41,289 nt of DNA from IMG/VR virus record IMGVR_UViG_3300046385_000071, positions 1 to 41,289 of that record; one strand, 5' to 3'. This document shows positions 3,524-39,938 of this stretch, one piece after another. Both the position numbers and the translations under genes were made by a program. A model generated the notes under the pieces. The model was not told the origin of the DNA. It saw only the letters and a program-made list of their open reading frames with translations, and did not search any database. Numbering within the stretch: the first letter of the stretch is position 1; every line of letters begins with the position of its first letter. This DNA comes from a virus.

Positions 3524-3742
3524 ATGTATAGATCCGGTATTGTTGGTCTTGGATACGGTCGAGGTTATATGGGCGCAGGTATTGGTTATCCATACGGCGC
3601 CCCTGGCGGCTATGGTTATGGTTATCCTGGCTATGGCTATGGCGGTTTAGGTTTAGGCCTAGGCGGTTATGGTTATGGCTATGGTTACCCAGGCTATGGC
3701 TATGGCGGCTACTACGGTGGTATTTCAGGCGGCTTATTATAA
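3524..3742 (+). CDS. Gly/Tyr-rich repeat protein
   Basis: 72 aa, more than half Gly and Tyr. Short repeats GYGYGYPGYGYGG occur twice, separated by GLGLGLGG. The DNA is correspondingly repetitive (ggctatggctatggcgg). The Shine-Dalgarno aaggagg at 3510 is strong. Such sequences form disordered or adhesive low-complexity segments. It sits between two proteins that share a C-terminal tag and is followed directly by a terminator. Function unknown. Confidence 0.8.
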   Translation: MYRSGIVGLGYGRGYMGAGIGYPYGAPGGYGYGYPGYGYGGLGLGLGGYGYGYGYPGYGYGGYYGGISGGLL

Positions 3743-4921: not shown

Positions 4922-5478
4922 CAAATCAACAAATAACAGAACAAAAACGTCTTGAAGAAATATTAAAACTGGCGCGAATGCAACTCAATGAAGAGTACAT
5001 GAAAAAGCATTCGGCTGCACACACCACATGGCTTACCAGTGCGCGAACAGCATGGAACAGCAGTGGGGTGTTATTACCGTTTTCTACTAAATTTGTCTAT
5101 CCTTCTGAAGAAGAAGTAGTTGCACGAGGAGTTGAAATTTACAACACACTAACGCTAAAAAATGCTGACACAGTGGCCCCAGTTGAACCGACTCCTGCCA
5201 CTGACCAAATTCCGGTCATTGAGGGAATTACAATTGAACCAACTGTTGAACTATTACAAGCAGGTGGTGATTTTGTAATAGCAGAAGTTGAAGAAGAACT
5301 TCCGGTTGAATCAATCAGCGAAGACATTTCGGATGTTGAAATAAAAAAAGAAACACCTAATATCCCGGAACCAACTGTAACAGAGCCTGATGTAGCGGAA
5401 CCAACTGTAACAGATTCACTATTAGAAAGCAAATTTAAGAGCCTATTCACCAAGTGGGGCGGCCGTGGAAATTATTAA
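4918..5478 (+). CDS. hypothetical protein with acidic Pro/Thr/Glu-rich linker
   Basis: 186 aa. A helical N-terminal domain of about 75 residues (RLEEILKLARMQLNEEYMKK) is followed by a long disordered segment with repeated EPT, VTEP and VAEP units and a short conserved-looking end SLLESKFKSLFTKWGGRGNY. Such layouts are typical of virion-attached linkers. No family recognised. ATG overlaps the previous stop. Confidence 0.7.
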   Translation: MTNQQITEQKRLEEILKLARMQLNEEYMKKHSAAHTTWLTSARTAWNSSGVLLPFSTKFVYPSEEEVVARGVEIYNTLTLKNADTVAPVEPTPATDQIPVIEGITIEPTVELLQAGGDFVIAEVEEELPVESISEDISDVEIKKETPNIPEPTVTEPDVAEPTVTDSLLESKFKSLFTKWGGRGNY

Positions 5479-5492
5479 GGAAAACAAATATT

Positions 5493-5978
5493 ATGATGTT
5501 TAACAATTTAGGATTATATTCCCATTGGCAGTACCGACGCCGTCGACCAGTACGACAAGTGCGTCCAGGCGCTCGTAGAGGAGCTGCATTTCCATTGATT
5601 CAACAAATTGGAGGCGCGGGACAGGACTTTTTTATCAATGGTGGCACGGGACCTGCGGGGCCACCTGGTCCGCAGGGGCCGCCTGGCAATCCTAGTCCAG
5701 TTGCGGTAACGGATGTTGCAACCGCAACTTACACAGCATTGGTCACTGATTACTTTTTATGTGTATTGACTAACGGATTGGTTACAATTACATTGCCAAC
5801 GGGCATACCAGGAACAGTATACATTGTTAAAGATTGTTTTGGCGATGCAGCAAACAATCCGATTACTATTCAAGGCACTGGAGGACAGTTAGTCGACGGA
5901 TCGGCTACTGCAACAATTAACACCAACTTTGGAAGTCTAACTTTCATATTTGATGGAACAGAATGGAGTATTGTATAA
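5493..5978 (+). CDS. collagen-like fibre protein with C-terminal beta domain
   Basis: 161 aa. An Arg-rich start (YRRRRPVRQVRPGARRG) is followed by a short collagen-like Gly-X-Y run (GPAGPPGPQGPPG, about residues 55-67) and an 85-residue beta domain with TITLPTGIPGTVYIVKDC, DGSATATIN and FIFDGTEWSIV. That beta domain recurs in the genes at 6769 and 7177. Start ATG 5493 is chosen because aagga lies 11 bases upstream and an earlier start would overlap the previous gene. Probable trimeric head or tail fibre component. Confidence 0.8.
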   Translation: MMFNNLGLYSHWQYRRRRPVRQVRPGARRGAAFPLIQQIGGAGQDFFINGGTGPAGPPGPQGPPGNPSPVAVTDVATATYTALVTDYFLCVLTNGLVTITLPTGIPGTVYIVKDCFGDAANNPITIQGTGGQLVDGSATATINTNFGSLTFIFDGTEWSIV

Positions 5979-9515: not shown

Positions 9516-9781
9516 ACGAACGAATTAAAGCGCTATTGATTCAGGCTCAAGACTTGGCTCGATCAGAAGTTGAGAACAACCCCAATATCAAACCCCCTTA
9601 TCATATCCCAGCAACTCAGGTACATGTGGGACTAGGCTTGTCTTATGAAAAGTTCGCCGAGTTGATTGTGCGAGAATGTTTGAGCATTGTTGAACCTACA
9701 GAAGACAGTGGTGACGAATGGTGTGTGACTCTTAAAGGAACTGCTGAAGAGATTAAAGAACATTTCGGAGTTGAAGAATGA
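9512..9781 (+). CDS. KFAELIV/HFGVEE-family small protein, copy 3
   Basis: 89-aa third copy of the family at 9 and 963: MNERIKALLIQAQ at the start, EKFAELIVRECLS in the middle, IKEHFGVEE at the end. The terminal DNA block is identical to the other copies even though they lie 8-9 kb away in a different operon. ATGA junctions on both sides. Confidence 0.85.
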   Translation: MNERIKALLIQAQDLARSEVENNPNIKPPYHIPATQVHVGLGLSYEKFAELIVRECLSIVEPTEDSGDEWCVTLKGTAEEIKEHFGVEE

Positions 9782-9954
9782 TTCGTATAATTCTATTTTG
9801 GTTTATCCTTTTTGCCTTGTTCTTTTTTGGGTTCAAGGTTCTAAGAAGTTTGTCCGGAAGTGAAGCATGGGCATTGACAAAGCTCACAGCCTATGCTATA
9901 CTATGTTCACTGTTAGCAACCGGCTTGCTGATTGGGTTTGTTGTTCTGTTTTAA
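9778..9954 (+). CDS. 58-aa two-pass membrane protein
   Basis: ATG 9778 overlaps the previous stop; TAA at 9952. The product starts MIRIILFWFILFALFFFGFK, has a polar loop with SGSEAW, and a second hydrophobic segment AILCSLLATGLLIGFVVLF. It is the first of several envelope-directed products in this operon. Confidence 0.65.
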   Translation: MIRIILFWFILFALFFFGFKVLRSLSGSEAWALTKLTAYAILCSLLATGLLIGFVVLF

Positions 9955-10050: not shown

Positions 10051-10848
10051 ATGAATCGTGCTATTAAACTTTCTATCGTGGCTGCTGCTGTGGCTCTGAC
10101 CAGTGCCTGTACTCGAATTGAAACAGGTGAAGTTGGTGTCCGTGTGGGCTTTGACAAACAAGTGCAAAGTGGCGAGCTGTTGCCTGGTTCTTTTAACCAA
10201 ACCCTTGTGGGTACTGTGCTGACTTTCCCTGTCAAAGACGTTAACGTGGTTCTGGAGAATATGACTCCAGTGGCACGAGACAACTCAACCATGAAAGACT
10301 TTGACGCAGTTGTGGTCTACAACATCAATCCACAGGCCGTTGCCGAGCTGTACTCAACCAAGAACAAGAGCTTTCACGCTGAGTTCAAGGGTGATACTTA
10401 TGTGATGTACAACTATGTGGTGCAAAATGCTCGTAATGCTATCTACAAGGCAGCTCGCAAGTATGAAGCCTTGGACATGGCAGACAATCGCACTGACATG
10501 GAAAACTACATCAAGGACGAAATTGTTCGCAACTTGGCTGAAGAAAAGCTAGACGGTCCAATCAGCATCAGCCAAGTTATGATTCGTAACGTAGTGCCCA
10601 GTGACACTGTAGTCGAAAGTGCCAACGCCTTGGTTCGTAGCAAGAACGAACTCAAGCAGAAAGAAGTTGAAGTCAAAACTGCCGAAGCTGAAAGCCGTCG
10701 AATGGCAGCACTGGCCAACAACTCCGGTGCAAGTATTGCATTCATGCAAGCACAGGCCATGTTGAATATCAGTGAAGGTATCAAGAACGGCAAAGTGCAA
10801 ACTGTAGTTGTTCCTTCTAACATGACCAGCTTGATGCTGCCTAAGTAA
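10051..10848 (+). CDS. SPFH (band 7/prohibitin-like) lipoprotein
   Basis: 265 aa. A type II signal peptide with lipobox LTSAC (Cys20) implies lipid anchoring in the envelope. The body follows the SPFH pattern: TGEVGVRVGFDKQVQSGELL, then FPVKDVNVVLENM, DFDAVVVYNINP, and a long C-terminal helix KNELKQKEVEVKTAEAESRR typical of HflK/prohibitin coiled coils. The family scaffolds membrane proteases and lipid domains, normally through an N-terminal membrane helix; lipid anchoring is unusual. In a phage it could protect or remodel the infected envelope or block superinfection (inference). It overlaps an operon with another lipoprotein and a pilin-like protein. Confidence 0.85.
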   Translation: MNRAIKLSIVAAAVALTSACTRIETGEVGVRVGFDKQVQSGELLPGSFNQTLVGTVLTFPVKDVNVVLENMTPVARDNSTMKDFDAVVVYNINPQAVAELYSTKNKSFHAEFKGDTYVMYNYVVQNARNAIYKAARKYEALDMADNRTDMENYIKDEIVRNLAEEKLDGPISISQVMIRNVVPSDTVVESANALVRSKNELKQKEVEVKTAEAESRRMAALANNSGASIAFMQAQAMLNISEGIKNGKVQTVVVPSNMTSLMLPK

Positions 10849-10849
10849 T

Positions 10850-11098
10850 ATGACGAGAGCAATCATCTTGGCACTAGCGGTGGTTGCTCTCACCGCTTGT
10901 GACAAACGTCCTTTGGACCAGCGTGACTATTCCAAGACTTCGATGTCAAACATTCCTGAACTTGCAGACTGTGTTTACATCAAAATTGAGGATGTACGCA
11001 TCGTGCGGTGCCCCAAGAGTGACACTACAGTAACTTACGAAGTACCAAACGGCAAGACACGTCGAACAGTAACTACCACGGTAATCAACGACAAATGA
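10850..11098 (+). CDS. small lipoprotein
   Basis: 82 aa. The N-terminus MTRAIILALAVVALTACDKR has a lipobox LTAC (Cys17) followed by Asp, which in Enterobacteria signals retention in the inner membrane. The mature part is small and beta-like with two Cys (LADCVYIKIEDVRIVRCPKS). The start lies one base after the SPFH gene stop. Function unknown; a superinfection-exclusion lipoprotein is a possibility. Confidence 0.8.
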   Translation: MTRAIILALAVVALTACDKRPLDQRDYSKTSMSNIPELADCVYIKIEDVRIVRCPKSDTTVTYEVPNGKTRRTVTTTVINDK

Positions 11099-11352
11099 AA
11101 CAACGCGGATTCACACTAATTGAAATGATGATTGCTGTTATCTTTGCCTTGTGCGTGGTCATGCTAGGGGTAGATGCGGTTACTGGTGCCAGCAATGGCA
11201 ATACCATCAGCTACGGCGTAAACGGTATGACTGAAATGCGATGCATTGACGGGTATAAGTTTGTTGTTAGCCAGCAAGGTGTTACACGACAAGTCATGGA
11301 CGAGTTTGGTAAAGGCGTTCGTTGTGAAGTTCCCAGACCAGGAGGTTTTTGA
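11095..11352 (+). CDS. type IV pilin-like protein
   Basis: 85 aa. The N-terminus MKQRGFTLIEMMIAVIFALC is a classic class III prepilin signal: a short basic leader ending in Gly5, then FTLIE with Glu at mature position 5 and a hydrophobic helix. The host prepilin peptidase PilD would be expected to cleave after Gly5 and methylate Phe. The remaining 60 residues form a small domain with two Cys (MRCIDGYKF and VRCEVPRPGGF), much shorter than a major pilin, more like a minor pilin. It starts within the end of the lipoprotein gene and ends overlapping the next ATG, so it is not a stray host fragment. Confidence 0.85.
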   Translation: MKQRGFTLIEMMIAVIFALCVVMLGVDAVTGASNGNTISYGVNGMTEMRCIDGYKFVVSQQGVTRQVMDEFGKGVRCEVPRPGGF

Positions 11353-11684
11353 TGTTTGATTGGTTTAAAAATATTGGTCGTGGAGAATATCCCGCTCAGG
11401 CTGACGTCCCTCTGGCATCTGATATAGAAAAGATCGGTGCTGATATGGGCAAGGTACTTCAGTTTCCAGAGTTAAAGACACCACCTATGCCGGAAGTAGC
11501 ACAACCAAAAGAAGAATCAGGGCGTGTGTTTTATCGTCTAGGCTTAACTGAAAACAATCGTGTGGCTCTTAGCATGTACTACGGTGAAGTCAGTATGAAC
11601 TGTGAAGGCGTCCAAAATTTGATTGACCAGTTGGAATTCTACAAGAGCATGCTAAAAGAGGAGTCAACTGATGACAACAGTTAA
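11352..11684 (+). CDS. hypothetical protein
   Basis: 110 aa beginning MFDWFKNIGRGEYPAQADVP. The C-terminal half RVFYRLGLTENNRVALSMYY and NLIDQLEFYKSMLKE looks like a small alpha/beta domain. ATG 11352 (overlapping the pilin-like stop) has a strong aggaggt site; the earlier TTG reading is not needed. No family recognised. Confidence 0.75.
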   Translation: MFDWFKNIGRGEYPAQADVPLASDIEKIGADMGKVLQFPELKTPPMPEVAQPKEESGRVFYRLGLTENNRVALSMYYGEVSMNCEGVQNLIDQLEFYKSMLKEESTDDNS

Positions 11685-12428: not shown

Positions 12429-13646
12429 ATGCGATTACGTGAACTATTATCTGAAGTCAAAATTGACAACAAGCAAGGTGCTGGAGCAGTTCCTTTTAAT
12501 CAGGACGTGGACTACTTTGGTCTACAGGTTATGATGAAGCCCAGCACGTTCTTGAGACTGGCTGCGCCGCTGGGGCAAGAGCACAGTGCCGAGTTAGAAA
12601 AATATATTGCCAATGGCGGTGCCATTGGTGCACCTTTCTTGGAAATCAAAATTCCAATAGAATGGGACGACGGCGACTTCTCTAAGCCTGCACAAGTTGC
12701 AGGGCACGAAGGTCGCAATCGCATGACAGCCGTTCAAAAGCTAGAAGGCGATGCGCCAATTGAAGTACACATTTTCCCACGCGGTGGGTATCGTGCTAGA
12801 GATATTACTCCAGAATTCCGTAGGGCATTGGCTCGTGGCTTGCAAGCTGAAAAAGCGGCGAATGTTGTTACCGGACCGTTATTCGAAGAAGATTTAGAAG
12901 AAGGTTGGCGAGATACAATGGCCAATTTGGCTATTGCAAGTGGTGTTGCTGCTGGTGGAGTAGGCGGCATGATGGCAAAACAAGCTGCCCAAGACTACTT
13001 TAAAGAACCCACTGCCGTGGTTGCGCAAGCAACGACCAAGGCGCCAGAAGTACCTGGCACGTTTGCACAAGCTAAAAAATCCCCAAATGTCCCGGCGGCT
13101 GTAAAAGCCGGCCCAGAAGCACCAAAGAAGCTAAATGTGCAACCAATTACCAGCAATCCACTTGAAAGCGTATTGCTTAAAGTCGCAAAATCGTCAGGTC
13201 TGCAAGGTTCCGAACTTGCTGCTTTTATGGCGCAATGCGCTCACGAAACAATGGACTTTAAAAGACTAACAGAGTTTGGCGGTAGCTTGGACTTCCGCAA
13301 GTACGATCCAAAGTATGCCCCTAAAAAAGCCAAAGCACTTGGAAACAAGCAAGTAGGAGACGGGGCAAAATACAAAGGCCGCGGCTTTATTCAGATCACT
13401 GGGCGCTACAACTATAAACGTGCAGGCGAAGAACTTGGCTTACCGTTAGAAAAGCATCCAGAGTTGGCCGAAGATCCAGCAACAGCCGCTAAGATTGCAG
13501 TTTGGTTCTGGAAGCATCGTGTACAACCAAATGTGGACAACTTTAAAGATACCACTGGTGTTACCAAACAAATCAACCCAGGGCTGCGTGGTTTAGAAGA
13601 CCGTAAAGAAAACTTTAGAGATTACATGCAAATTGCAATGCAATAA
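12429..13646 (+). CDS. virion-type fusion protein: ParB-like domain plus GH19 lysozyme
   Basis: 405 aa. Residues 1-9 MRLRELLSE form a leader like the T4 capsid-targeting sequence (ends in Glu). Residues 25-130 contain QVAGHEGRNRMTAVQKLEGD, recalling the G-x-E-x-R-x-R core of ParB/sulfiredoxin-like domains. A hydrophobic Gly/Ala segment (164-183) and an Ala/Pro/Lys-rich linker follow. The C-terminal GH19 domain (about 245-405) shows AQCAHETMDF with the probable catalytic Glu273 and YKGRGFIQITGRYNY. It would cleave peptidoglycan, likely during entry if packaged. A second free GH19 enzyme lies at 28727. Confidence 0.85.
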   Translation: MRLRELLSEVKIDNKQGAGAVPFNQDVDYFGLQVMMKPSTFLRLAAPLGQEHSAELEKYIANGGAIGAPFLEIKIPIEWDDGDFSKPAQVAGHEGRNRMTAVQKLEGDAPIEVHIFPRGGYRARDITPEFRRALARGLQAEKAANVVTGPLFEEDLEEGWRDTMANLAIASGVAAGGVGGMMAKQAAQDYFKEPTAVVAQATTKAPEVPGTFAQAKKSPNVPAAVKAGPEAPKKLNVQPITSNPLESVLLKVAKSSGLQGSELAAFMAQCAHETMDFKRLTEFGGSLDFRKYDPKYAPKKAKALGNKQVGDGAKYKGRGFIQITGRYNYKRAGEELGLPLEKHPELAEDPATAAKIAVWFWKHRVQPNVDNFKDTTGVTKQINPGLRGLEDRKENFRDYMQIAMQ

Positions 13647-19193: not shown

Positions 19194-20543
19194 ATGAAAA
19201 TACAAGACTTAATCGAAGGTTGCGCTCACGGAGAGTACTACTGCTCCACAGACAAAAAGTGGAAGTGCCGTCAAGGCCCCAAGCAAAGTAGAAAGGTGGC
19301 AGAAGGCTTACCACAGACTCTACGCAAGGTTGTTCCTGGACACGCCAAGCGTGAGATTGATAAGAAGATGGATGCCGGAAAGTTTGGCAAAACTGATGCG
19401 GATAAAGATGCCAACTTTCAACGCTATAAAAAGATTCAAGACAAGTTAGACGAGTTTGCACCAGATGGGTTTAACGGCGGCGATGACGGAGAAGAGTTTA
19501 ATCCAAGATTAGCCAAAATGGCGTATGATGAAGGTGTTGTTAAAGGTGTGAGCCTTGCTGACGGTGCTACATTAGAACGAGCAATGGTAATAAATGATTG
19601 GGACAAACACGACGGTGGTATCTATAAACAACACTTTGCTAAAGGCTTCAAAGCAGGTCGTATGAATAAAATCCGTCACGGTAATAAACAATACAATCTT
19701 AACTTAAAGTTGATGAAAGACGGAAGTATTCGTCACGGTGAGCAAGGTGTGGCGGAAGGCGGATATCCTGAAGTAGACCACATGCCGGGACCTGTTACAA
19801 AAAGAACACAGACTGGTTGCAAGAGATGTCACGGCAAAGGGTATGTTTATAAAACACCCGACGGTGAAACTCATCCAATGAATCGTCCAGATGCCAAGAA
19901 ATACAAATGTGGTAAGTGTGATGGTATTGGGTTCGTTAAAGTAGCAGAGCAAGGTGTGGCGGAAGGCTCAACAGATTTGGTTCAGATTGAATACTGGCAA
20001 CAAGAGACAATGGAGTCAGGTAGATGGGTCAAAACAAAACTCATTCCTCGTGCCACAGCAGAAAAAATAGTAAATTCTTTTGAGCGTGGTGAAATTGTTG
20101 ATGTAGAGCAAGGTGTGGCGGAAGAAAAGCAACGCCTAGATCCCAAGTGCTGGGACGGTTATAAAAAAGACGGCACTAAGATGAAGGGTGGCGTTAGAGT
20201 CAATAACTGCGTCAAAGAAGAATTAGAAGAAACTTATGACGGTGACGAGTTCTTTGAAGCATACGGTGAGTTATGGTTTAATGAAGACGAGCAGTTAGAC
20301 GAAGCCGAATACCAAGGACGTTCAGTTCCGCTTGGAAAGCCTATGCAAGGCGATGTTAAAAAGTTCAAAGTGTACGTAAAAGATCCTTCAACTGGCAACG
20401 TTAAAAAAGTAAACTTTGGCGATCCAGACATGAAGATTCGTAAGAGTAATCCAGCGGCTCGTCGTAGCTTCCGTGCTAGACACAACTGCGATAATCCGGG
20501 ACCTCGCACAAAGGCCCGTTATTGGTCATGTAGGGCCTGGTAA
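19194..20543 (+). CDS. polyprotein with GVAEG linkers, polyprotein A
   Basis: 449 aa. Leader MKIQDLIE then Gly9 matches a prohead-protease site. Further sites: VAE37-G, then EQGVAE-G ending at 188 and 257, and EQGVAE-E at 310. The pieces between look like separate domains: 38-188 helical; 189-257 with two C-x2-C-x-G-x-G motifs (CKRCHGKG, CGKCDGIG) like half a DnaJ zinc finger; 258-310 a small alpha/beta unit; and 311-449 starting with LDPKCWDGYKKDGTKMKGG and ending in an Arg/Cys-rich segment RHNCDNPGPRTKARYWSC. The linker DNA is nearly identical at each site. Products of cleavage would be injected effectors if packaged (inference). Confidence 0.75.
   Translation: MKIQDLIEGCAHGEYYCSTDKKWKCRQGPKQSRKVAEGLPQTLRKVVPGHAKREIDKKMDAGKFGKTDADKDANFQRYKKIQDKLDEFAPDGFNGGDDGEEFNPRLAKMAYDEGVVKGVSLADGATLERAMVINDWDKHDGGIYKQHFAKGFKAGRMNKIRHGNKQYNLNLKLMKDGSIRHGEQGVAEGGYPEVDHMPGPVTKRTQTGCKRCHGKGYVYKTPDGETHPMNRPDAKKYKCGKCDGIGFVKVAEQGVAEGSTDLVQIEYWQQETMESGRWVKTKLIPRATAEKIVNSFERGEIVDVEQGVAEEKQRLDPKCWDGYKKDGTKMKGGVRVNNCVKEELEETYDGDEFFEAYGELWFNEDEQLDEAEYQGRSVPLGKPMQGDVKKFKVYVKDPSTGNVKKVNFGDPDMKIRKSNPAARRSFRARHNCDNPGPRTKARYWSCRAW
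19740..19760 (+). repeat. GVAEG linker repeat, polyprotein A, copy 1
   Basis: Consensus gagcaaggtgtggcggaagg plus c, coding EQGVAEG. Predicted cut after Glu188. Identical in all 21 bases to the copy at 19947. Confidence 0.8.
19947..19967 (+). repeat. GVAEG linker repeat, polyprotein A, copy 2
   Basis: Same 21 bases as the copy at 19740, coding EQGVAEG; predicted cut after Glu257. Confidence 0.8.
20106..20126 (+). repeat. GVAEG linker repeat, polyprotein A, copy 3
   Basis: Identical through the first 19 bases (gagcaaggtgtggcggaag), then codes Glu instead of Gly: EQGVAEE. The cut may be weaker here. Confidence 0.75.
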
Positions 20544-20544
20544 C

Positions 20545-21171
20545 ATGTTTTATATTGTATATAAGATAACCAATTTACTAAACAATAGATACTATATTGG
20601 ACGTCATGCTACTAAAAATATCATTGACTCCTATATGGGTAGCGGTATCGGTATAATAAATGCAATCAAAAAGTATGGCAAAGAAAACTTCAAAAAAGAA
20701 ATAATTGCAATGGCATTTGATCGTAGCTCGTTATGGGATCTTGAAAAACTTATTGTAAACGAAGATGTTGTCAAGGATCCGTTATCTTATAACATGGCAT
20801 ATGGTGGTAAGCACTATCTTCATGGTTTAAAAACATACAACTACGATGCTTTCATTGCACATCAGTCTATGGCAGGTAAAAAGTATGCGGAAAATTATAA
20901 ACCCAAAGAAAAATCTTGGCATCAAAAAGGCGGAAGCGCAAGCTCTACAAAAAGAAGCCAACAATATGTTTATAAGATTACTACTAATGCCGGAGAAGAA
21001 TTTACTGTTAATGGGATTGAATTTAAAGCACTTTGCCTAGAGAAAGGCTGGAACTATAATACCTTACATTGGAAGCAAAGCATAGGCAAAACTATTAGCA
21101 AAGGTCAACACACAGGGTTTCTAGTAGAGCAGTTGAGCACATACAAAGAAAAGGTGTTAACCATATGCTAA
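20545..21171 (+). CDS. GIY-YIG homing endonuclease
   Basis: 208 aa. The N-terminal domain has FYIVYKITNLLNNRYYIGRH (the GIY and YIG strands), then DSYMGSGIGIINAIKKYGKE and WDLEKLIVNEDVV with the conserved Glu, and SYNMAYGG. The C-terminal half is basic with a DNA-binding module (VYKITTNAGEEFTVNGIEFK). It is a free-standing mobile endonuclease placed one base after polyprotein A and overlapping the next cargo gene, without disturbing either reading frame. Confidence 0.92.
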   Translation: MFYIVYKITNLLNNRYYIGRHATKNIIDSYMGSGIGIINAIKKYGKENFKKEIIAMAFDRSSLWDLEKLIVNEDVVKDPLSYNMAYGGKHYLHGLKTYNYDAFIAHQSMAGKKYAENYKPKEKSWHQKGGSASSTKRSQQYVYKITTNAGEEFTVNGIEFKALCLEKGWNYNTLHWKQSIGKTISKGQHTGFLVEQLSTYKEKVLTIC

Positions 21172-26905: not shown

Positions 26906-28725
26906 TGAAATTCTCAGACTTAGGCGATAAAGGTCCAGACTTTATTCGAGAAATAGACAGCCAAGGCTACCGCGGTAGCCGCGACAGTGTTGAAGATGAT
27001 GTTGGCAAGAAAGAATACAGCGGCAAAGTGGCCAAGCCCGGTGATGTTGTCAAGCAAGGCGCCAAGGCATTAGACAACGCATTTAACCATAAAGAAGATG
27101 ATTGGTCAGCTGACTTTGAACGCAGAATGAAAAATGAAGCTGAAGAAGATGCATTTGTTGATCAGCTGTCTGGCTTGCAACAATGGGACGTTATGGTTAT
27201 GAATAACTTCTACGGCGGCAAGTATCCAGATTACAGCGCACGTTACTACTCAGTAGTTGCAAGCAGCCCAGAAGAAGCACGACAAGTTGTCGTTGACAAT
27301 GCTGATTATGTATTACAAGACTTGTTATCACGTAAGCTACAAAATGGTAAGAAAGTATTGCCGCGTGGCAGTGCGTTACCAATTGAAGACAAGCGTGTAG
27401 GTAAAGCTAAACCGGGCACACTAACAACTATGGGATTTAAGAAAATGCTTTCCCCGGATGGCGTCAAGTCCTTTAAGTTTGCGTCGGGCAAGATTGTTGA
27501 TAGTGAAGAACAAGGTGTGGCGGAAGGCAGAGCAACATACGGCCCAGTCACTGACCAACACAAAGCCGCTTCCAAGAAAGCATTCAATGCCGGTGTGCGT
27601 GATGGTAAAGCAGGTGTTGAGAAAAATAAAGAATATATGTCTAGTGCGTTGATGAAAACAACTTATCTCAATGGTTACAAGCAGGGCAAGCAAGGTGTGG
27701 CGGAAGGCCAAGGCAGTGTTAGCGTCAGACAGTGGGCGAATCAAGTTCGCAGGGATCACGGCTCCGATGTTAAGTTTAGAAATCGTCAAGAAGGTGGCGG
27801 CGCAGTAGACAGTGTTATTGCTAAAAACAGTAACGGAGAAACAGTAGGTGTGTATAATCGTAAGACTGGTTACCCTACAGTATATGAACCAAAGCAAGGT
27901 GTGGCGGAAGGATCTACTACACTATGGGAAGTTAGTTTTGACTATGGCCCGCACCAGTCAGACTCTGTAAAAGTCAAGGCAAGGTCAGCCCAAGAAGCTG
28001 TTGATAAAGTAGAAACTGCGGCAGAGAAAAAAGGTCGTAGCATAATGGTTAACTGGGCAAGACCAACAGAACAAAGTGTAGCGGAAGGCATTGTTTACAA
28101 CACTCTTACTATAGACAATCAAAACTTAATTGACCAAAAAGCCAAATCCAAGCCCGACGGCATTTACACATTCCGCGGAATCATGTTCCGTGTTAAAAAC
28201 GGCAGAGCAACTCACTATGCTGCCGAAAGTTCGATACTTGCTTCATATGGAAATTTTAACACCGCAGTAGGTTCATACTCTACCAGGGATGAAGCTAAAG
28301 CAAAATTGAAAAGTATCAAAGAAGGTCTAGCGGAAGGCATTAATCCCGAGCATTATGATGTACAAGAAGCCAGTTTAGCACAAATGCGTGACTATTTTAA
28401 CCAAGACGATTCTGATTCTGTAAAAGTCAACCGCAATTATGATGCGCCAAGTGATAAAAAGAACCCCGCAGGTGTTCCGCCAAAGATTCAAGCATTGGTT
28501 AATAAAATGTATCATGCTGGTAAAATTAGCCCGCAAGAGTTTGAAACTCTAAGAAAGTTTCAACGCCAAACAAAAATCAATGTAGGTATCCGTGAAGCAG
28601 ATGCGAACCCATATGTAATTGGTATGGCACAAGCTATGAAAAGCACAGGTGACAAGCCACCGTTGAAAAAGAGCACTATCAATAAAGCACATGCCATTGC
28701 TCGTGCCGTCAAAAAAGGAGATTGA
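26905..28725 (+). CDS. polyprotein with GVAEG linkers, polyprotein B
   Basis: 606 aa. ATG 26905 overlaps the previous stop. After a 207-residue N-terminal part, linkers end at Glu207, 267, 335, 394 and 477 (EQGVAE-G, KQGVAE-G, KQGVAE-G, EQSVAE-G, EGLAE-G), giving units of 60, 68, 59 and 83 residues and a C-terminal part of 129. Each unit reads as a small separate domain, for example FDYGPHQSDSVKVKARSAQE and YTFRGIMFRVKNGRATHYAA. The end is NPYVIGMAQAMKSTGDKPPL with a basic helix. Cleavage at L/I/V-x-E before Gly would be the signature of a T4-type prohead protease. Predicted capsid-internal precursor. Confidence 0.75.
   Translation: MKFSDLGDKGPDFIREIDSQGYRGSRDSVEDDVGKKEYSGKVAKPGDVVKQGAKALDNAFNHKEDDWSADFERRMKNEAEEDAFVDQLSGLQQWDVMVMNNFYGGKYPDYSARYYSVVASSPEEARQVVVDNADYVLQDLLSRKLQNGKKVLPRGSALPIEDKRVGKAKPGTLTTMGFKKMLSPDGVKSFKFASGKIVDSEEQGVAEGRATYGPVTDQHKAASKKAFNAGVRDGKAGVEKNKEYMSSALMKTTYLNGYKQGKQGVAEGQGSVSVRQWANQVRRDHGSDVKFRNRQEGGGAVDSVIAKNSNGETVGVYNRKTGYPTVYEPKQGVAEGSTTLWEVSFDYGPHQSDSVKVKARSAQEAVDKVETAAEKKGRSIMVNWARPTEQSVAEGIVYNTLTIDNQNLIDQKAKSKPDGIYTFRGIMFRVKNGRATHYAAESSILASYGNFNTAVGSYSTRDEAKAKLKSIKEGLAEGINPEHYDVQEASLAQMRDYFNQDDSDSVKVNRNYDAPSDKKNPAGVPPKIQALVNKMYHAGKISPQEFETLRKFQRQTKINVGIREADANPYVIGMAQAMKSTGDKPPLKKSTINKAHAIARAVKKGD
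27508..27528 (+). repeat. GVAEG linker repeat, polyprotein B, copy 1
   Basis: gaacaaggtgtggcggaagg plus c; differs by one synonymous base (gaa for gag) from the copies in polyprotein A 7.5 kb upstream. Confidence 0.8.
27688..27708 (+). repeat. GVAEG linker repeat, polyprotein B, copy 2
   Basis: aagcaaggtgtggcggaagg plus c, coding KQGVAEG; predicted cut after Glu267. Confidence 0.8.
27892..27912 (+). repeat. GVAEG linker repeat, polyprotein B, copy 3
   Basis: aagcaaggtgtggcggaagg plus a, coding KQGVAEG; predicted cut after Glu335. Confidence 0.8.
28069..28089 (+). repeat. GVAEG linker repeat, polyprotein B, copy 4
   Basis: gaacaaagtgtagcggaagg plus c, coding EQSVAEG; two changes from the consensus, predicted cut after Glu394. 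Confidence 0.75.
28321..28338 (+). repeat. GVAEG-type linker, polyprotein B, copy 5 (diverged)
   Basis: gaaggtctagcggaaggc codes EGLAEG; Leu in place of Val gives the best match to the classical L-x-E protease site. Predicted cut after Glu477. Confidence 0.6.
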
Positions 28726-28726
28726 T

Positions 28727-29368
28727 GTGATCGAATTAACCGTTGATATCTTAGAAGCATGCTTGCCAGAAGCCAAGCGAGCAAATTTAGAAAAGTTTGT
28801 GGAAGGTTTAAATGACACGTTTGCTCACTTTGAAATTGACACGCCTAAACGCATGGCCATGTTTATTGCTCAAACTGCGCACGAGTCAGGCAACTTTGCT
28901 GCAACACAGGAAAACTTGAACTACAGTGCAAGGGGTCTAACTGGTACATTTAAAAAGTATTTCCCCACAGAAGAGTCAGCTGTACCTTATTCTCGCAAGC
29001 CAGAAAAGATTGCCAATCGTGTGTACGGGGGACGAATGGGCAATGGTGACGAAGCTTCCGGGGACGGCTTCAAGTATCGCGGTCGCGGGGTTATTCAATT
29101 GACTGGCAAGGACAACTACACTGCATGCGGACGAGCATTAAGCATGGATTTGTTAACTGATCCCAACTGTGTTGCAGAAAATCCAGTGGCAGTGCTATCT
29201 GCAGGTTGGTTCTGGAACACACGCAGATTAAACGATTGGGCAGACAAAGGTGATATAGTAACTGTTACTAAAAAGATCAATGGCGGCACAATTGGTTTAG
29301 CCGATCGTAAAAAGCACTATGAGCACATTTTAGAAGTTCTGGAAGAACTTGCCAACCAGCACGGATAA
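28727..29368 (+). CDS. GH19 endolysin
   Basis: 213 aa, a complete single-domain GH19 lysozyme. FIAQTAHESGNFAATQENLN holds the catalytic Glu53, YRGRGVIQLTGKDNYTACGR the substrate-binding core, and GWFWNTRRLNDWADKGD the C-terminal lobe. GTG at 28727 is chosen: aaaggag lies 7 bases upstream and the previous stop overlaps, while the ATG at 28725 is out of frame. It has no capsid-type leader, so it is the candidate for host lysis, in contrast to the fused GH19 at 12429. A terminator follows. Confidence 0.9.
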   Translation: MIELTVDILEACLPEAKRANLEKFVEGLNDTFAHFEIDTPKRMAMFIAQTAHESGNFAATQENLNYSARGLTGTFKKYFPTEESAVPYSRKPEKIANRVYGGRMGNGDEASGDGFKYRGRGVIQLTGKDNYTACGRALSMDLLTDPNCVAENPVAVLSAGWFWNTRRLNDWADKGDIVTVTKKINGGTIGLADRKKHYEHILEVLEELANQHG

Positions 29369-34057: not shown

Positions 34058-34717
34058 ATGTTTATTAAAAACAAGTACTCAAAATGTTATTACCGCATCA
34101 TTGAAAATAGGAAATCTAACCCAGTCACTGGGTATTCTGAAAAACATCATATAATTCCCCGCAGTCTTGGGGGCAGCAATAAAAAAGAAAATTTGGTGTC
34201 ATTGACTGCAAGAGAACATTTTATTTGTCATAGATTGTTAGTAAAAATGACAACCGGAACCGATAAAATGAAAATGTCATATGCTATAAGATGCCTGATT
34301 AATCAAGAGAACCAACACCAACAGAGATACAAACTTACTTCCAGAACATACAATGCCATAATAGCAAATACACGAGAAAATATTTCTAAACATCAACGTG
34401 GTGAGAATAATCCATTCTATGGAAAAACTCATTCAGCAGAAGTTAGAGCAAAGATGCGGGCTAAGAGAGCGTTACAGGTTATGCCAAGTCGCTCCGGTAA
34501 AGTGTATTCTGAAGAAACAATCCAACGCTGGCGCCAAGGAAACAAAAAACAGTTCGAAGATCCTGCACAAATTGAAATGAGGCGGACTGCTTGCAATAAA
34601 ATACAAGGAATGAAAATTTATCACAATCATTTGGGCAAAACAAAATATTATTTTGAAAATACTCAACCAGATGGTTGGATATTAGGAAGACCATCTAAGA
34701 AAGGGGGTGTAGTATGA
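34058..34717 (+). CDS. HNH homing endonuclease with NUMOD3-type repeat
   Basis: 219 aa. EKHHIIPRSLGGSNKKENLV and SLTAREHFICHRLL make the HNH nuclease core (HH, N, H). GENNPFYGKTHSAEVRAKMR is a NUMOD3 DNA-binding repeat. The C-terminus has a further basic module (MKIYHNHLGKTKYYFENTQP). It lies between two versions of the start of the nucleotidyltransferase gene, and its stop overlaps the second start. Free-standing mobile element. Confidence 0.92.
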   Translation: MFIKNKYSKCYYRIIENRKSNPVTGYSEKHHIIPRSLGGSNKKENLVSLTAREHFICHRLLVKMTTGTDKMKMSYAIRCLINQENQHQQRYKLTSRTYNAIIANTRENISKHQRGENNPFYGKTHSAEVRAKMRAKRALQVMPSRSGKVYSEETIQRWRQGNKKQFEDPAQIEMRRTACNKIQGMKIYHNHLGKTKYYFENTQPDGWILGRPSKKGGVV

Positions 34718-36075: not shown

Positions 36076-36630
36076 ATGGACCAAAAAGTTGTAGTAAACC
36101 ATTGGCGTTATGAAGATGGTTGGAGTGATATTCCTTATGTACTGTTAAAGGATAAGAACAGTCTCACTCGCGAATTCCGTGAGGAAGTAGTTGGTTGGCA
36201 CTGCTGGGTATACTGCAACGATCACCACGAGTTCATTGCTTGGATGGAAGAGCATTGTCCTGGCGCAGACTGTACACCACGATTCAACTCAGGAGACCCA
36301 ATGATTACTGTGAGTATCAAAGATAAGGACGAGGCGGCATATTTTATGCTGAACTTTGGATGTATAATGCTTAACTATAACTTATACCTAGGTGACCGCA
36401 ACGAAACTGAGCTGTATGATTGGCTTTGCGAAAACATTGGTCCGTTGGGTCGCACAGCCAAAGCTGAGTGGAATTACTTTACACAGTATCACGGGGACAA
36501 TGACTTGTGGATCATGCACTCTGCTGATGTTTCTGACACATCTAGCCAGTATGACATTATCACTGTTATGAGCTTCAAGCACCGAGAAGATGCTGTAATG
36601 GCTAAACTACGCTTTGGTGGTTCGATGTAA
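36076..36630 (+). CDS. LRW-array protein 1, two fused units
   Basis: 184 aa. Two copies of the array domain in one chain: the first ends ISIKDKDEAAYFMLNFG-like (VSIKDKDEAAYFMLNFG), the second has WLCENIGPLGRT and ends FKHREDAVMAKLRFGGSM. The common pattern is W-x-x-E(N/H) followed by an aromatic strand pair and F-x-x-x-x-D-A-x-x-F-x-L-R-(W/F). First member of the tandem array. The stop overlaps the next ATG (TAATG). Confidence 0.75.
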   Translation: MDQKVVVNHWRYEDGWSDIPYVLLKDKNSLTREFREEVVGWHCWVYCNDHHEFIAWMEEHCPGADCTPRFNSGDPMITVSIKDKDEAAYFMLNFGCIMLNYNLYLGDRNETELYDWLCENIGPLGRTAKAEWNYFTQYHGDNDLWIMHSADVSDTSSQYDIITVMSFKHREDAVMAKLRFGGSM

Positions 36631-36872
36631 TGGCATGGCTTGAGCCAAAATACTCATTGAAAAAGAGTTGGGGGCATGTTGTGGCCCTTAAAGATCCATA
36701 TCAGGATCACAATGAGTTTGGCACTGTAGTGGACCTAGGTTCCGTTGATGCGATCCTAAAATGGGCCGAAGAAAACGCAAATGCCACCAGAATCAGCTAC
36801 GATACTTGGAAATTTAGGTCGCGTGATGACGCAGAACAGTTTATAATGCTGTATAAACTAACGTGGACCTAG
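36630..36872 (+). CDS. LRW-array protein 2
   Basis: 80 aa. It has ILKWAEENANATRISYDTWK and ends FRSRDDAEQFIMLYKLTWT. One complete unit of the array domain, with KLTWT in place of KLRWS. The next gene starts one base after its stop. Confidence 0.75.
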   Translation: MAWLEPKYSLKKSWGHVVALKDPYQDHNEFGTVVDLGSVDAILKWAEENANATRISYDTWKFRSRDDAEQFIMLYKLTWT

Positions 36873-36873
36873 T

Positions 36874-37314
36874 ATGAATGATCCTGATTTCTCTGCAATT
36901 GATCTTGAAACAATGACGGGCGCAAGCCTGCACGACTGTCAAAAGCAAACATTTGACACAATGTATGGTGGGTTCAAACGTGGACAACTGATGACATTTG
37001 ATTCGGGCCGTGGTACTGGTAAGAGTATGCTCGCTGCGAGCGCGTGGGCCGGGCCCACGCTCGAAATCGATTCGTTAGCTATGCTAACGCCACTGCCACC
37101 CTTTGAAGTTTTGTCCACTGCTGATGTTGATGGTGCGCCTTGGTACACTGTTTCCTGTCGCAAAGAAGTTCCCGTTTGGATTCGTGAAAACGGCGAAGAA
37201 GGTAAGGAATGGTACAGTCACATTCACATTGACAGCAAGTGGATGACTCACCGTAATGTGTTCGACATGTCGCAGGAAATGTTTGCCATGGTTAAATTAC
37301 GGTGGGGCACATGA
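36874..37314 (+). CDS. LRW-array protein 3 with an orphan P-loop
   Basis: 146 aa. The N-terminal part carries YGGFKRGQLMTFDSGRGTGK then SML, a Walker A motif (G45-x4-GK50-S51) as found at the start of phage ATPase domains, but no Walker B or the rest of an ATPase. The remaining part is an array unit ending FAMVKLRWGT. It is probably a chimera of a truncated ATPase start and an array unit; nucleotide binding is doubtful. Confidence 0.7.
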   Translation: MNDPDFSAIDLETMTGASLHDCQKQTFDTMYGGFKRGQLMTFDSGRGTGKSMLAASAWAGPTLEIDSLAMLTPLPPFEVLSTADVDGAPWYTVSCRKEVPVWIRENGEEGKEWYSHIHIDSKWMTHRNVFDMSQEMFAMVKLRWGT

Positions 37315-37505
37315 GAGTATTAAACAAACGCCACTGGCCGTATCAGTTTGCATTGCCTATCAAGGATATGCATGTTACTGATGATCGCATTATTTGGCTC
37401 AAGAACAACTTGTCCAAAGAAGCATGGCGATACAATGAAACCAATGCAACGTTTTGTTTCGTTGAAAAAGACGATGCAGTGTTGTTCAAGCTATCCTGTG
37501 CATGA
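37311..37505 (+). CDS. LRW-array protein 4
   Basis: 64 aa. It contains IIWLKNNLSKEAWRYNETNA and ends FCFVEKDDAVLFKLSCA. LSCA replaces LRWS, as LSCV does at 39498. ATG 37311 overlaps the previous stop; the bases coding LRWG (ttacggtggggc) supply the G-rich ribosome site. Confidence 0.75.
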   Translation: MRVLNKRHWPYQFALPIKDMHVTDDRIIWLKNNLSKEAWRYNETNATFCFVEKDDAVLFKLSCA

Positions 37506-37780
37506 GCTATAATGGCGCTGCACAATTTAACCCATCTCCGGGAAAAGCATATATGGAATACTCAATCATAACTGATGGGTGTGACTGCTATCCTTGGCAC
37601 GAAGTATATGCTTGGTGGCCAGTTAAAACAGTGTACGGTGAACGTGTATGGGGTGAACGAGTTTTTAAACGCAGGGTGTGGGTAGTGTGGGGCACAGGAT
37701 TCCACATGGAGCCGGAAACACAATACGCAACCATGTTTGATAGGTTGACACTTGATGATACTAAGCCGATTAAAAACTAA
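37502..37780 (+). CDS. LRW-array protein 5, diverged
   Basis: 92 aa. Trp- and Val-rich (YAWWPVKTVYGERVWGERVF, KRRVWVVWGTGF). The end ETQYATMFDRLTLDD is only a distant form of the array C-terminus. ATG overlaps the previous stop. Its end overlaps the next gene by 26 bases. Confidence 0.65.
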   Translation: MSYNGAAQFNPSPGKAYMEYSIITDGCDCYPWHEVYAWWPVKTVYGERVWGERVFKRRVWVVWGTGFHMEPETQYATMFDRLTLDDTKPIKN

Positions 37781-38198
37781 AGTCAGCACGGCTGCTCGTG
37801 CGTGGCAAGAAGAACGCTTTTTAAAGAAGCATCACTGTCGCAATCGTGCAGAGTACAATCGTAGATATGATCCAGATTATATTCCACGGGCATCACAGAT
37901 TGCAAACTACTACCATGGCTATAAGCATGTACATTGTTTTGAAAATCGCGAAAACTTTGTGTACAACAGAATTTACGATTACGGGCCCGGTGGATACAGA
38001 GATGGATTCCATGAGATATGCGACTGGTGCGAAGAGCACTTGAGTGGCAAATGGCGATACGATATGCTTCGTGTAATGCGGGCACCAAGCACTGGCAATC
38101 AATGGGAAGTAAATGAACTAGGCGGCGGCGATCACTGGTTCTTTGCATTTCAAGATAGCGAAGACTATTTTATGTTTAAACTGCAATGGGGACAATAA
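37755..38198 (+). CDS. LRW-array protein 6
   Basis: 147 aa. A basic N-terminal extension (RLKTKVSTAARAWQEERFLK, KKHHCRNRAEYNRRYD) is followed by an array unit with ICDWCEEHLSGKWRYDMLRV and the end FAFQDSEDYFMFKLQWGQ. ATG 37755 is chosen over the TTG one codon upstream. The stop overlaps the next ATG (TAATG). Confidence 0.75.
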   Translation: MILSRLKTKVSTAARAWQEERFLKKHHCRNRAEYNRRYDPDYIPRASQIANYYHGYKHVHCFENRENFVYNRIYDYGPGGYRDGFHEICDWCEEHLSGKWRYDMLRVMRAPSTGNQWEVNELGGGDHWFFAFQDSEDYFMFKLQWGQ

Positions 38199-38641
38199 TG
38201 AACACAGCTTACTTTACAGATGAAGAACTGATCAATCATGTTATCAAGTTCAGTGACGATCCAGAAAAAATTCGACTAGCAACTGCTATGGAACGTATGC
38301 GAGGTTCTACTTGGGATGATCTAGTCGATGTAGGCATGGATGAAACATACTGCACGTTTAACTCCGAATGGGGTTCAGAAATGCATGTTGGCCGCTACAT
38401 CTCTCACCTGCGTGAAGAAATTGATATGCGTGATGATGAACTTCGGCAACTGCGCGATGAAGTCGAAGAATTAAAGACAAGGTCTATCATTGACTTTATC
38501 CAGGAAGTCAAACAAGAGTTAAAAACGGCCGAGTACCGTGTTAAACAAGCACAAGATGCCCGCGATGAGGAACACAAGGCTCGTCGTAAAGCAGAACGTG
38601 AACTTGAAGTATGGGATGTATTGACCAACGGAAAGTCATGA
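38198..38641 (+). CDS. coiled-coil protein inside the array
   Basis: 147 aa. It does not carry the array C-terminus. The first 75 residues are acidic (FTDEELINHVIKFSDDPEKI), the rest is one long coiled coil (EEIDMRDDELRQLRDEVEEL; VKQAQDARDEEHKARRKAER). ATG 38198 is preferred over 38186, which would overlap more of the previous gene. It may be an inserted gene or a partner of the array proteins. Confidence 0.75.
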   Translation: MNTAYFTDEELINHVIKFSDDPEKIRLATAMERMRGSTWDDLVDVGMDETYCTFNSEWGSEMHVGRYISHLREEIDMRDDELRQLRDEVEELKTRSIIDFIQEVKQELKTAEYRVKQAQDARDEEHKARRKAERELEVWDVLTNGKS

Positions 38642-38826
38642 AAAAGAAAGAGTACGGAATAGCTATTGAGAATTGGCCCTGGAAGCATAAAGCAGAAGTA
38701 CGAATGTGGCTTGTTGAAAACTTTGGAGCTCATGGCGATCGTTGGTATGAAGAACCCGATTATGGTTTAGAAAACTTAGTCATGGACGAAGAAGTATATT
38801 TTATGTATAAGTTGAGGTGGTCATGA
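38638..38826 (+). CDS. LRW-array protein 7
   Basis: 62 aa, a minimal unit: VRMWLVENFGAHGDRWYEEP and the end VMDEEVYFMYKLRWS. The terminal codons ttg-agg-tgg-tca overlap the start of the next gene and form its ribosome site. ATG 38638 overlaps the coiled-coil gene stop. Confidence 0.75.
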   Translation: MKKKEYGIAIENWPWKHKAEVRMWLVENFGAHGDRWYEEPDYGLENLVMDEEVYFMYKLRWS

Positions 38827-39071
38827 TTAGAATGGATCTAACTAACAATGATCCATTTCTGTTGAGTAATACTCTGTGGGATAACTTTTCTCGTAATATT
38901 GCTAACCAACACAGAAGCATAACTGTAGATATGGTAAACGAAGCACTAGTTGAATACAACGCAACTTATCATTATAAGGAGATTGGCAACTTATTTGAAA
39001 GCAGTTATCAAGAGTGGATTGATTTTAAAAACAATGATGATTACATTATGTTTAAGTTGAGGTGGGCATGA
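38823..39071 (+). CDS. LRW-array protein 8
   Basis: 82 aa. Starts MIRMDLTNNDPFLLSNTLWD and ends FKNNDDYIMFKLRWA. ATG 38823 lies within the tgaggtggtcatga junction; the in-frame GTG two codons upstream lies inside the ribosome site and is rejected. Confidence 0.75.
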   Translation: MIRMDLTNNDPFLLSNTLWDNFSRNIANQHRSITVDMVNEALVEYNATYHYKEIGNLFESSYQEWIDFKNNDDYIMFKLRWA

Positions 39072-39247
39072 CTACAGTAACAATAACATGTCCTATAACA
39101 TGGTGGGAACGATGCCAATGGATATATAAAAATTGCACTGAGCCTGTAGATAGAACAAACTGGGGAATGTGGCAAATAGGGCAAGATGATATCTACTTTG
39201 AGGTAGAAGATCAAGATGCATTTATGTTTAAGTTGAGGTGGGCATGA
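39068..39247 (+). CDS. LRW-array protein 9
   Basis: 59 aa, the shortest complete member: TCPITWWERCQWIYKNCTEP and the end FEVEDQDAFMFKLRWA. Its last 28 bases including the following start are identical to the end of protein 8, evidence for recent duplication or conversion. Confidence 0.75.
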   Translation: MTTVTITCPITWWERCQWIYKNCTEPVDRTNWGMWQIGQDDIYFEVEDQDAFMFKLRWA

Positions 39248-39498
39248 CTGTATATTATAAAACCAATGAAGCATGGCCTGGTATTAACTTTCCTGTATTG
39301 CACAGAGTTGTTTATGCTAAAACTGTAGACGGGGTGATGGCCATGTACCAACGCAGTTATAAAGATTACTTAGTAGATGCATGGCTAGAAACAAACTGCC
39401 AGCATCCTTATTACCACAGCCCCGGCTACCTTAGAGAAAAGTTTATTGAGTTTGAATGTGATGAAGATGCTGCCATGTTTGCATTATCGTGTGTATGA
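39244..39498 (+). CDS. LRW-array protein 10
   Basis: 84 aa. Contains WLETNCQHPYYHSPGYLREK and ends FECDEDAAMFALSCV, the LSC variant. Its start uses the tgaggtgggcatga junction. Confidence 0.75.
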   Translation: MTVYYKTNEAWPGINFPVLHRVVYAKTVDGVMAMYQRSYKDYLVDAWLETNCQHPYYHSPGYLREKFIEFECDEDAAMFALSCV

Positions 39499-39713
39499 AT
39501 ATACAATTTAAACATCGCCCAGGACGATACTATGAGTGGGAATGGTACTACAGTCCACAGGGTCTTGAAATGGGTGAAGTCTACGGCTGGTGCAGGGAAA
39601 CATTTGGGCACCCTGGCTTGGCATTAGGTGATGGGTCCTGGGACTGCCACAGCGGCTGGATCAAATTCTGTAAGCAGGAAGATATGCTGTTGTTTGTGTT
39701 GAGGTGGTCATGA
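39495..39713 (+). CDS. LRW-array protein 11
   Basis: 72 aa. VYGWCRETFGHPGLALGDGS shows the W-C-x-E-x-F-G core also seen in proteins 1 and 7; the end is FCKQEDMLLFVLRWS. ATG overlaps the previous stop. Its terminal codons again make the gaggtgg ribosome site of the next gene. Confidence 0.75.
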   Translation: MNIQFKHRPGRYYEWEWYYSPQGLEMGEVYGWCRETFGHPGLALGDGSWDCHSGWIKFCKQEDMLLFVLRWS

Positions 39714-39931
39714 ACGTATTTCGTAAAAAACATAAAGTACTTGCAGAGGAATACAGTTCTAGAATCATTGATGCAATGCTTAGTAGCGGTCACGGCGTAT
39801 ACCGCAACAGTTTTTGGCAGTTCGTTAAACAAGAATACAATGGTGACCAAGAGTTTAGATGGCGCAAAGAAAAGAACTACATTGTGTTCAATGATGAAAA
39901 AGACTACATGATGTTTTTATTAAGGATGTGA
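39710..39931 (+). CDS. LRW-array protein 12
   Basis: 73 aa, ending FNDEKDYMMFLLRM. The reading frame reaches the shared junction in a different phase: the tga of tgaggtggtcatga is its stop codon, so the LRW codons are lost but the ribosome site for the next gene is kept. Confidence 0.75.
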   Translation: MNVFRKKHKVLAEEYSSRIIDAMLSSGHGVYRNSFWQFVKQEYNGDQEFRWRKEKNYIVFNDEKDYMMFLLRM

Positions 39932-39938
39932 GGTGGTC

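Follow-up and report, generated by a model that had tools for sequence, protein, structure and literature searches.

The window analysed here, the whole 41,289-nucleotide stretch of viral DNA, contains at positions 11095-11352 a small gene whose product begins like a type IV prepilin and ends in a phage-specific domain with two cysteines. The explanation that we tentatively favour is a truncated phage prepilin, a pilin mimic that would act on the assembly of the host type IV pilus or of a type II secretion system. This explanation draws on what can be read in the sequences: the class III signal and its conservation, the apparent lack of a pilin head, relatives that lack the C-terminal cargo or carry it on another anchor, the gene neighbourhood and a conserved promoter-like site. 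That the class III signal is used seems very probable to us, and contact with a pilus or type II secretion assembly machine has about an even chance. Net inhibition of the pilus, with a benefit in exclusion or takeover, is a more doubtful proposition. The gene and its parts are as follows.

11095..11352, + strand: prepilin-like gene of 85 amino acids with ATG start, leader MKQRG, mature start F, E5, alpha1-N-type hydrophobic helix and two-Cys C-domain.
11095..11109, + strand: codons of the basic leader peptide MKQRG; a prepilin peptidase cut is predicted after G5 from the motif, the Pfam N_methyl match and the conservation of G5.
11110..11184, + strand: codons of the mature N-terminus FTLIEMMIAV... 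(residues 6-30), an alpha1-N-like membrane helix in which the mature E5 is residue 10.
11209..11331, + strand: codons of the phage-specific C-domain SYGVNGMTEMRCIDGYKFVV...RQVMDEFGKGVRCEV, with Cys50 and Cys77 invariant.

The 85-residue translation begins MKQRGFTLIEMMIAVIFALCVVMLGVDAVTG and reads in full MKQRGFTLIEMMIAVIFALCVVMLGVDAVTGASNGNTISYGVNGMTEMRCIDGYKFVVSQQGVTRQVMDEFGKGVRCEVPRPGGF. It contains the short basic leader of a class III signal, K-Q-R-G after the initial Met, with Gly at -1, as well as the Phe at +1 (where Met and some other residues are also accepted), the Glu at +5 and the hydrophobic helix. The Pfam family N_methyl (PF07963) matches residues 1-15 with 26.2 bits, against a gathering cut-off of 21.2. 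An ORF with a prepilin-type start was absent from 60 Markov versions of the window and present once in the real one, which argues that the motif is not a product of chance. A preliminary description of this DNA had called the N-terminus a textbook prepilin start, with Gly at -1, Phe at +1 and Glu at +5, and these results, together with the presence of such a start in 64 of 72 related viral loci, bear this out. The overlaps with phage genes on both sides that it reported are also there. The ATG shares 4 nt with the stop of the upstream ORF (ATGA at 11095-11098), and the stop shares 1 nt (TGATG) with an ATG at 11352 that is most likely the start of the downstream ORF and is preceded by AGGAGG at 11340. 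Because of these start and stop overlaps, the N_methyl match and the Markov control, we regard the ORF as real and as part of a phage transcript.

Searches of viral contigs gave 31 loci with the whole protein and 72 with an alignment of the C-domain. The homologue search in phage genomes that had been proposed earlier thus yields a family of at least 72 viral loci, many of them in T4-like and jumbo phages. When the C-domain was searched for in 84,980 bacterial and archaeal genomes, none of the 104 pattern matches was confirmed, which makes it unlikely that the gene was taken as an entire minor pilin from a bacterium. A tblastn search with just the 27 residues of a pilin N-terminus had no match, probably an effect of the low-complexity filter in BLAST. 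N_methyl scores above its cut-off in 42 of 48 related records and never more than once per record, even in genomes of 331 and 374 kb, which points to a specific gene and not to the capture of pilin operons from hosts.

The prepilin motif is conserved at the amino-acid level. Each of the residues G5, T7, L8, I9 and E10 occurs in at least 90% of the 56 aligned sequences, and the family profile matches 21 sequences in the PDB, all of them pilins or pseudopilins and all through the N-terminal part only. Among 56 de-duplicated sequences with a readable prepilin-type start, the mature E5 position holds Glu in 54, Gln in one and Asn in one; the automatic pattern required Glu or Gln here, and the Asn-bearing sequence (L089) was added by eye. 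The +1 residue of the prepilin-type starts is Phe in 47, Met in four, Val in two, Tyr in one and Ile in one. The GFTLIE codons differ synonymously among relatives at every motif residue, with all six codons used for Leu. Pairwise dN/dS, a rough measure here since synonymous sites are near saturation, is lowest in the C-domain (0.074), slightly higher in the leader and mature N-terminus (0.10) and highest in the remainder of the transmembrane segment (0.29); leader and C-domain are both under purifying selection. In one relative (L104, 2897-3118) the prepilin-like ORF is broken in the transmembrane segment by an in-frame TGA, between MNISFLELVIVLFIL and ILGAV, by sequencing error, decay or recoding.

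In laboratory pilins E5 is important mainly for methylation and assembly and less for cleavage or membrane insertion. Its retention in the phage proteins therefore suggests use by an assembly machine. E5 is as strictly kept as the cleavage Gly, and this points away from a chance signal anchor and towards a pilus or secretion machine.

The resemblance to a minor pilin appears to end at the transmembrane helix. An AlphaFold2 model from the family alignment (mean pLDDT 77.6, pTM 0.42) has a helix at residues 8-30 and short strands at 37-41, 44-51, 54-59 and 64-66. Pilins have an extended alpha1 of about 50 residues (alpha1-N plus alpha1-C); in the model the helix stops at residue 30 and gives way to a linker rich in Gly, Ser and Asn. 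Among the best PDB matches that Foldseek listed for this model, whose pTM is only 0.42, there was no pilin, and its best viral matches were proteins of about 80 residues from Delftia phage RG-2014 and Acidovorax phage ACP17 (probability 1.00), plus a phage lipoprotein. The earlier proposal that the short C-terminal domain resembles a minor pilin is thus not upheld: alpha1-C is absent, the model has no pilin head, and the helix is followed by a two-Cys domain specific to phages, which other proteins carry on transmembrane or lipoprotein anchors. Cys50, Phe56, Gln66, Gly72, Gly74 and Cys77 of this domain are invariant in the 56-member alignment, in which a variable hydrophobic stretch separates them from the prepilin motif. 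The window protein (CIDGYKF...GKGVRC) fits the family pattern C-[IV]-x-[GN]-Y-x-F ... Q-[IV]-[LM] ... G-x-G-x-x-C with its two invariant cysteines. We found no Pfam entry for this CIDGYKF-type family and no PHROG match to the C-domain alone.

Several other candidate relationships were rejected. The Excalibur calcium-binding domain matches weakly, below its cut-off, in ORF355 of Xanthomonas phage XacN1 only, and the Asp residues of its motif are absent from the window protein. DUF6440 appeared only in weak Foldseek matches, and a match in Escherichia phage mar001J1 has no domain in common. Low-scoring matches to Mycobacterium and Vibrio tail fibres were taken as chance, and those in phages of A. 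salmonicida, Pseudomonas and Rhizobium share only a different two-Cys C-terminus.

The model also bears on the idea that the phage subunit joins the host pilus harmlessly and gives it a new property, such as display of the C-domain or a changed receptor or adhesion. E5 and alpha1-N are intact, as such a functional pilin or adhesin would need, and very short subunits do exist: the geopilin domain 1 protein (PilA-N), a 61-residue PDB chain, is among the profile matches. However, the model without alpha1-C or pilin head, the lack of pilins among the listed PDB matches, and natural 28-residue forms that have nothing to display make this reading improbable.

Prepilin start and C-domain behave as parts that can be combined and parted. 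They are fused in 64 of the 72 loci. Elsewhere the C-domain sits on a plain transmembrane segment (L082, L087, L106, L067, ACP17 and gp152 of Delftia phage PhiW-14), on a degenerate prepilin (L089) or behind a lipobox (XacN1 ORF355); the hhalign probabilities against the C-domain are 92 for the PhiW-14 and 97 for the XacN1 protein. Conversely, some Aeromonas phages encode prepilins that consist of leader and alpha1-N only, with 28 residues in Aeh1, Ah1, AsFcp_2 and avDM12 and 31 in PX29 p038; the Aeh1 protein, p044, reads MKGFTLIELIVVVAILGILFSVVAPAIF. From these cargo-less forms the prepilin part seems useful by itself. PhiW-14 has both halves as separate genes, gp119 (a 44-residue prepilin; L222, 1989-2123) and gp152 (the C-domain on its plain transmembrane segment; L109, 1854-2102), and by comparison the window protein is a fusion of these two modules. 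Prepilin starts with other short two-Cys tails are frequent among viral contigs and are also seen in isolates, among them Aes508 and Vibrio phage 1.081.O. The fusions, swapped anchors, cargo-less forms and split PhiW-14 genes together argue that anchor and cargo are separable modules, each under selection.

Since the C-domain is also found on plain transmembrane and lipoprotein anchors, its display at the envelope is a serious alternative, which we rate as possible rather than probable. The prepilin signal would then be a mere convenient anchor and the pilus machine irrelevant; the two-Cys domain would act at the periplasmic face of the inner membrane, blocking DNA injection by incoming phages or altering the envelope, like T4 Imm and Sp or small exclusion lipoproteins. 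This would suit a C-domain that is the most constrained part of the protein, is carried on at least three types of anchor (prepilin, transmembrane, lipoprotein) and is often encoded beside lipoproteins and an SPFH protein. The anchor type changes at least five times on the C-domain tree as drawn, a mostly unresolved tree from 46 columns that strictly requires at least one change, so that a single change is compatible with it. A plain anchor, on the other hand, would need neither the Gly at -1 nor the E5 that are kept in 54 of 56 sequences; the cargo-less Aeromonas phage prepilins imply selection for the prepilin part alone; and short phage prepilins recur with unrelated C-termini.

The neighbours of the gene in the window, and a promoter-like site ahead of them, are the following.

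9874..9902, + strand: sigma70-like promoter TTGACA-17-TATACT with TG before the -10 element, inside ORF 9778-9954 and upstream of the run of SPFH, lipoprotein and prepilin genes.
10051..10848, + strand: SPFH/band 7 lipoprotein (Pfam Band_7, E 4e-17; phrog_200), a close upstream neighbour in one of the two main contexts.
10850..11098, + strand: small lipoprotein-like ORF with lipobox LTAC, directly upstream with ATGA coupling (phrog_902), 96% identical in three near relatives.
11352..11684, + strand: downstream ORF (MFDWFKNIGR...) overlapping the prepilin stop by 1 nt and adjoining the gene in several relatives; probably on the same transcript.

In 17 loci the prepilin gene follows a small transmembrane ORF and an SPFH/band 7 lipoprotein; the pairing of SPFH and prepilin genes also occurs in Aeromonas phages Aes508 and GomatiRiver_11, and in Xanthomonas phage X1 at 2.3 kb. 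In the other main context the gene comes after an AAA ATPase (25 loci) and before a UvsW-like helicase. TTGACA-17-TATA(A/C)T precedes the SPFH gene in all 20 locus entries examined, some of which are the same contig twice, and the conservation may be partly coding, as the site lies within a small ORF. A conserved sigma70-like promoter ahead of the SPFH-prepilin run suggests early expression by host polymerase. The T4 late promoter TATAAATA was not found in the window. A virion or lysis membrane protein, holin- or spanin-like and only incidentally similar to a prepilin, is very improbable in our judgement. The protein is small with one transmembrane segment, and a GH19-type endolysin ORF (12429-13646) lies 1.1 kb downstream, as one might expect of such a protein; yet phages in which the gene has different neighbours conserve the prepilin motif at the amino-acid level, the gene is far from lysis genes in the AAA/UvsW context, and its promoter in the SPFH context is of early type.

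Other parts of the window have features of their own. Two ORFs are GH19/endolysin-like (12429-13646 and 28691-29368); the first is extended at its N-terminus and may contain a transmembrane segment. Between 12429 and 28725 the ORFs at 12429, 14747, 17126, 19194, 21165, 23649 and 24773 begin alike, with a start of the type M-(K/R)-(L/I)-R-(E/D), and those at 19194 and 26890 have repeated QGVAEG motifs. From this, the similarly starting ORFs and 26890 could be taken for internal head proteins that have their targeting in common and contain sites resembling those of a prohead protease (xxE-G, cut before the Gly). Homing endonuclease ORFs, judged from their sequence only, are GIY-YIG-like at 20473-21171 and HNH-like at 34058-34717. 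A paralogous array at 36076-40295 consists of about a dozen small overlapping tandem ORFs that share the C-terminal motif E-x-D-A-x-M-F-K-L-R-W-(A/S). Positions 3524-3742 encode a Gly-Tyr-rich repeat protein and 5454-5978 a collagen-like GPPGPQGPPG protein.

The T4-type major capsid protein was above its cut-off in 15 of the 48 related records, and psbA, a marker of cyanophage hosts, was present in none of the 48. As a clue to the host of the window phage, the nucleotide-sugar dehydrogenase gave mixed phyla, with Methyloglobulus morosus as best named isolate (61%). A tblastn search with the prepilin of Acibel004 found 105 phage records, mostly through the prepilin N-terminus: 49 from phages of Synechococcus, 29 of Vibrio, 19 of Aeromonas, two each of Acinetobacter and Delftia, one each of Pseudomonas and Salmonella, and two unnamed. 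Synechococcus, Vibrio and Aeromonas thus account for 97 of the 105, and essentially none come from Escherichia, Klebsiella or Shigella phages. T4-type capsid records in the same collection number 637 for Escherichia, 386 for Synechococcus, 329 for Klebsiella, 201 for Salmonella, 136 for Vibrio, 87 for Shigella, 78 for Aeromonas, 70 for Acinetobacter and 58 for Enterobacter. Set against these counts, the prepilins appear to track hosts with prominent type IV pili, a skew that is confounded by phage phylogeny and uneven sampling, many of the 49 Synechococcus phage records being near-identical. One Synechococcus phage, BUCT-ZZ01 (L001), has no psbA and a major capsid protein closest to the Methylophilales phages Melnitz (56%), which is unusual within the Kyanoviridae.

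If the protein is a pilin mimic, it would be an early product, probably expressed from a promoter of the host type along with the SPFH lipoprotein and the small lipoprotein, and would insert into the inner membrane so that its C-domain faces the periplasm. The host prepilin peptidase (PilD/GspO type) would cut after Gly5 and methylate Phe+1, and the processed mimic would enter the membrane pool of host pilins or pseudopilins. Alpha1-N with its E5 may then dock on the assembly platform, with the alpha1-C stalk and pilin head missing, and as a decoy or terminating subunit the protein could slow or stop the assembly (or retraction) of type IV pili or of the type II secretion pseudopilus. The two-Cys C-domain would add an activity at the periplasmic face, perhaps a clamp at the base or a block on incoming phage. 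The phage might gain exclusion of pilus-dependent phages, or a shutdown of pilus dynamics during infection.

Contact with the machine is argued for mainly by the joint retention of E5 and the cleavage Gly, along with the natural cargo-less forms. Against the pilin mimic, the occurrence of the C-domain on plain transmembrane or lipoprotein anchors means that the family may have a core function unrelated to pili. Type IV pili or a type II secretion system in the host of the window phage are only presumed, and about half of the genomic contexts (AAA ATPase/UvsW-like helicase) give no hint of an envelope function. A broader hypothesis, which we consider possible but somewhat doubtful, is that miniature prepilins of down to 28 residues have repeatedly evolved or been captured as decoys that jam type IV pili or type II secretion by way of the host peptidase and platform, and that the window protein is a cargo-bearing version made early with the SPFH lipoprotein.

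Many phages use type IV pili as their receptor, and DNA uptake takes place by way of these pili. Phage inhibitors of these pili include D3112 Gp05 and DMS3 Aqs1, which target PilB (PMC11436027, PMC8143254), Gp21 of vB_Pae_QDWS (PMC11436027) and a filamentous-phage protein (PMC8764522). They are described as acting on the motor or on expression and not by subunit mimicry (PMC11436027; PMC8143254; see also PMC8764522). The outcome proposed here, loss of pilus function and superinfection exclusion, is similar, but none of them is described as a pilin, and it is by these descriptions that we set them apart; none of the inhibitor families (Gp05/Tip, Aqs1, the filamentous-phage inhibitor) was among the PHROG and Pfam matches of the window protein. 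The preliminary description counted no pilin among the phage inhibitors of type IV pili, which fits the accounts of Gp05, Aqs1, Gp21 (PMC11436027) and the filamentous-phage protein (PMC8764522). Pilin-like phage genes themselves had been annotated before: Aeh1 p044, PX29 p038, Aes508_086, Acibel004_97 ('PilE-like'), the 'pilin' genes of S-CAM7 and ACG-2014f, and the PHROGs 3433 (pilin), 13280, 11263, 10597, 27437 and 11596. We found no functional study of a phage-encoded prepilin in the literature that we searched. These annotated proteins share the prepilin N-terminus, are usually short and, in Aes508 and GomatiRiver_11, have an SPFH lipoprotein upstream; their C-termini, in contrast, are unrelated or absent, none has the CIDGYKF domain, and the cyanophage versions have longer pilin-like sequence.

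If true, the pilus machine could be switched off in a new manner, by a decoy subunit from within the membrane, and a natural prepilin of 28 residues would be a ready-made tool and a minimal test of the roles of alpha1-N and E5. Many uncultured T4-like and jumbo phages carry the gene. It also occurs in isolates that have laboratory hosts (Aeromonas phage Aeh1, vibriophages of the KVP40 type and Delftia phage PhiW-14), which makes the idea directly testable. ACP17, PhiW-14 gp152, RG-2014 and XacN1 ORF355 share with the window protein the domain C-x-x-G-(Y/V)-x-F ... Q-(I/V)-(L/M/I) ... G-x-G-x-(P)-C, but their anchor is a plain transmembrane segment or a lipoprotein, not a prepilin signal. Type IV prepilins and pseudopilins (PilA, PilE, GspG, MshA and Geobacter PilA-N) share the class III signal, with its Gly-ended basic leader, Phe at +1 and Glu at +5, and alpha1-N. 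Compared to them, the mature window protein is only about 80 residues long, has a phage-specific two-Cys C-domain, apparently in place of the alpha1-C stalk and pilin head, and is encoded by one gene per phage outside any pilus operon.
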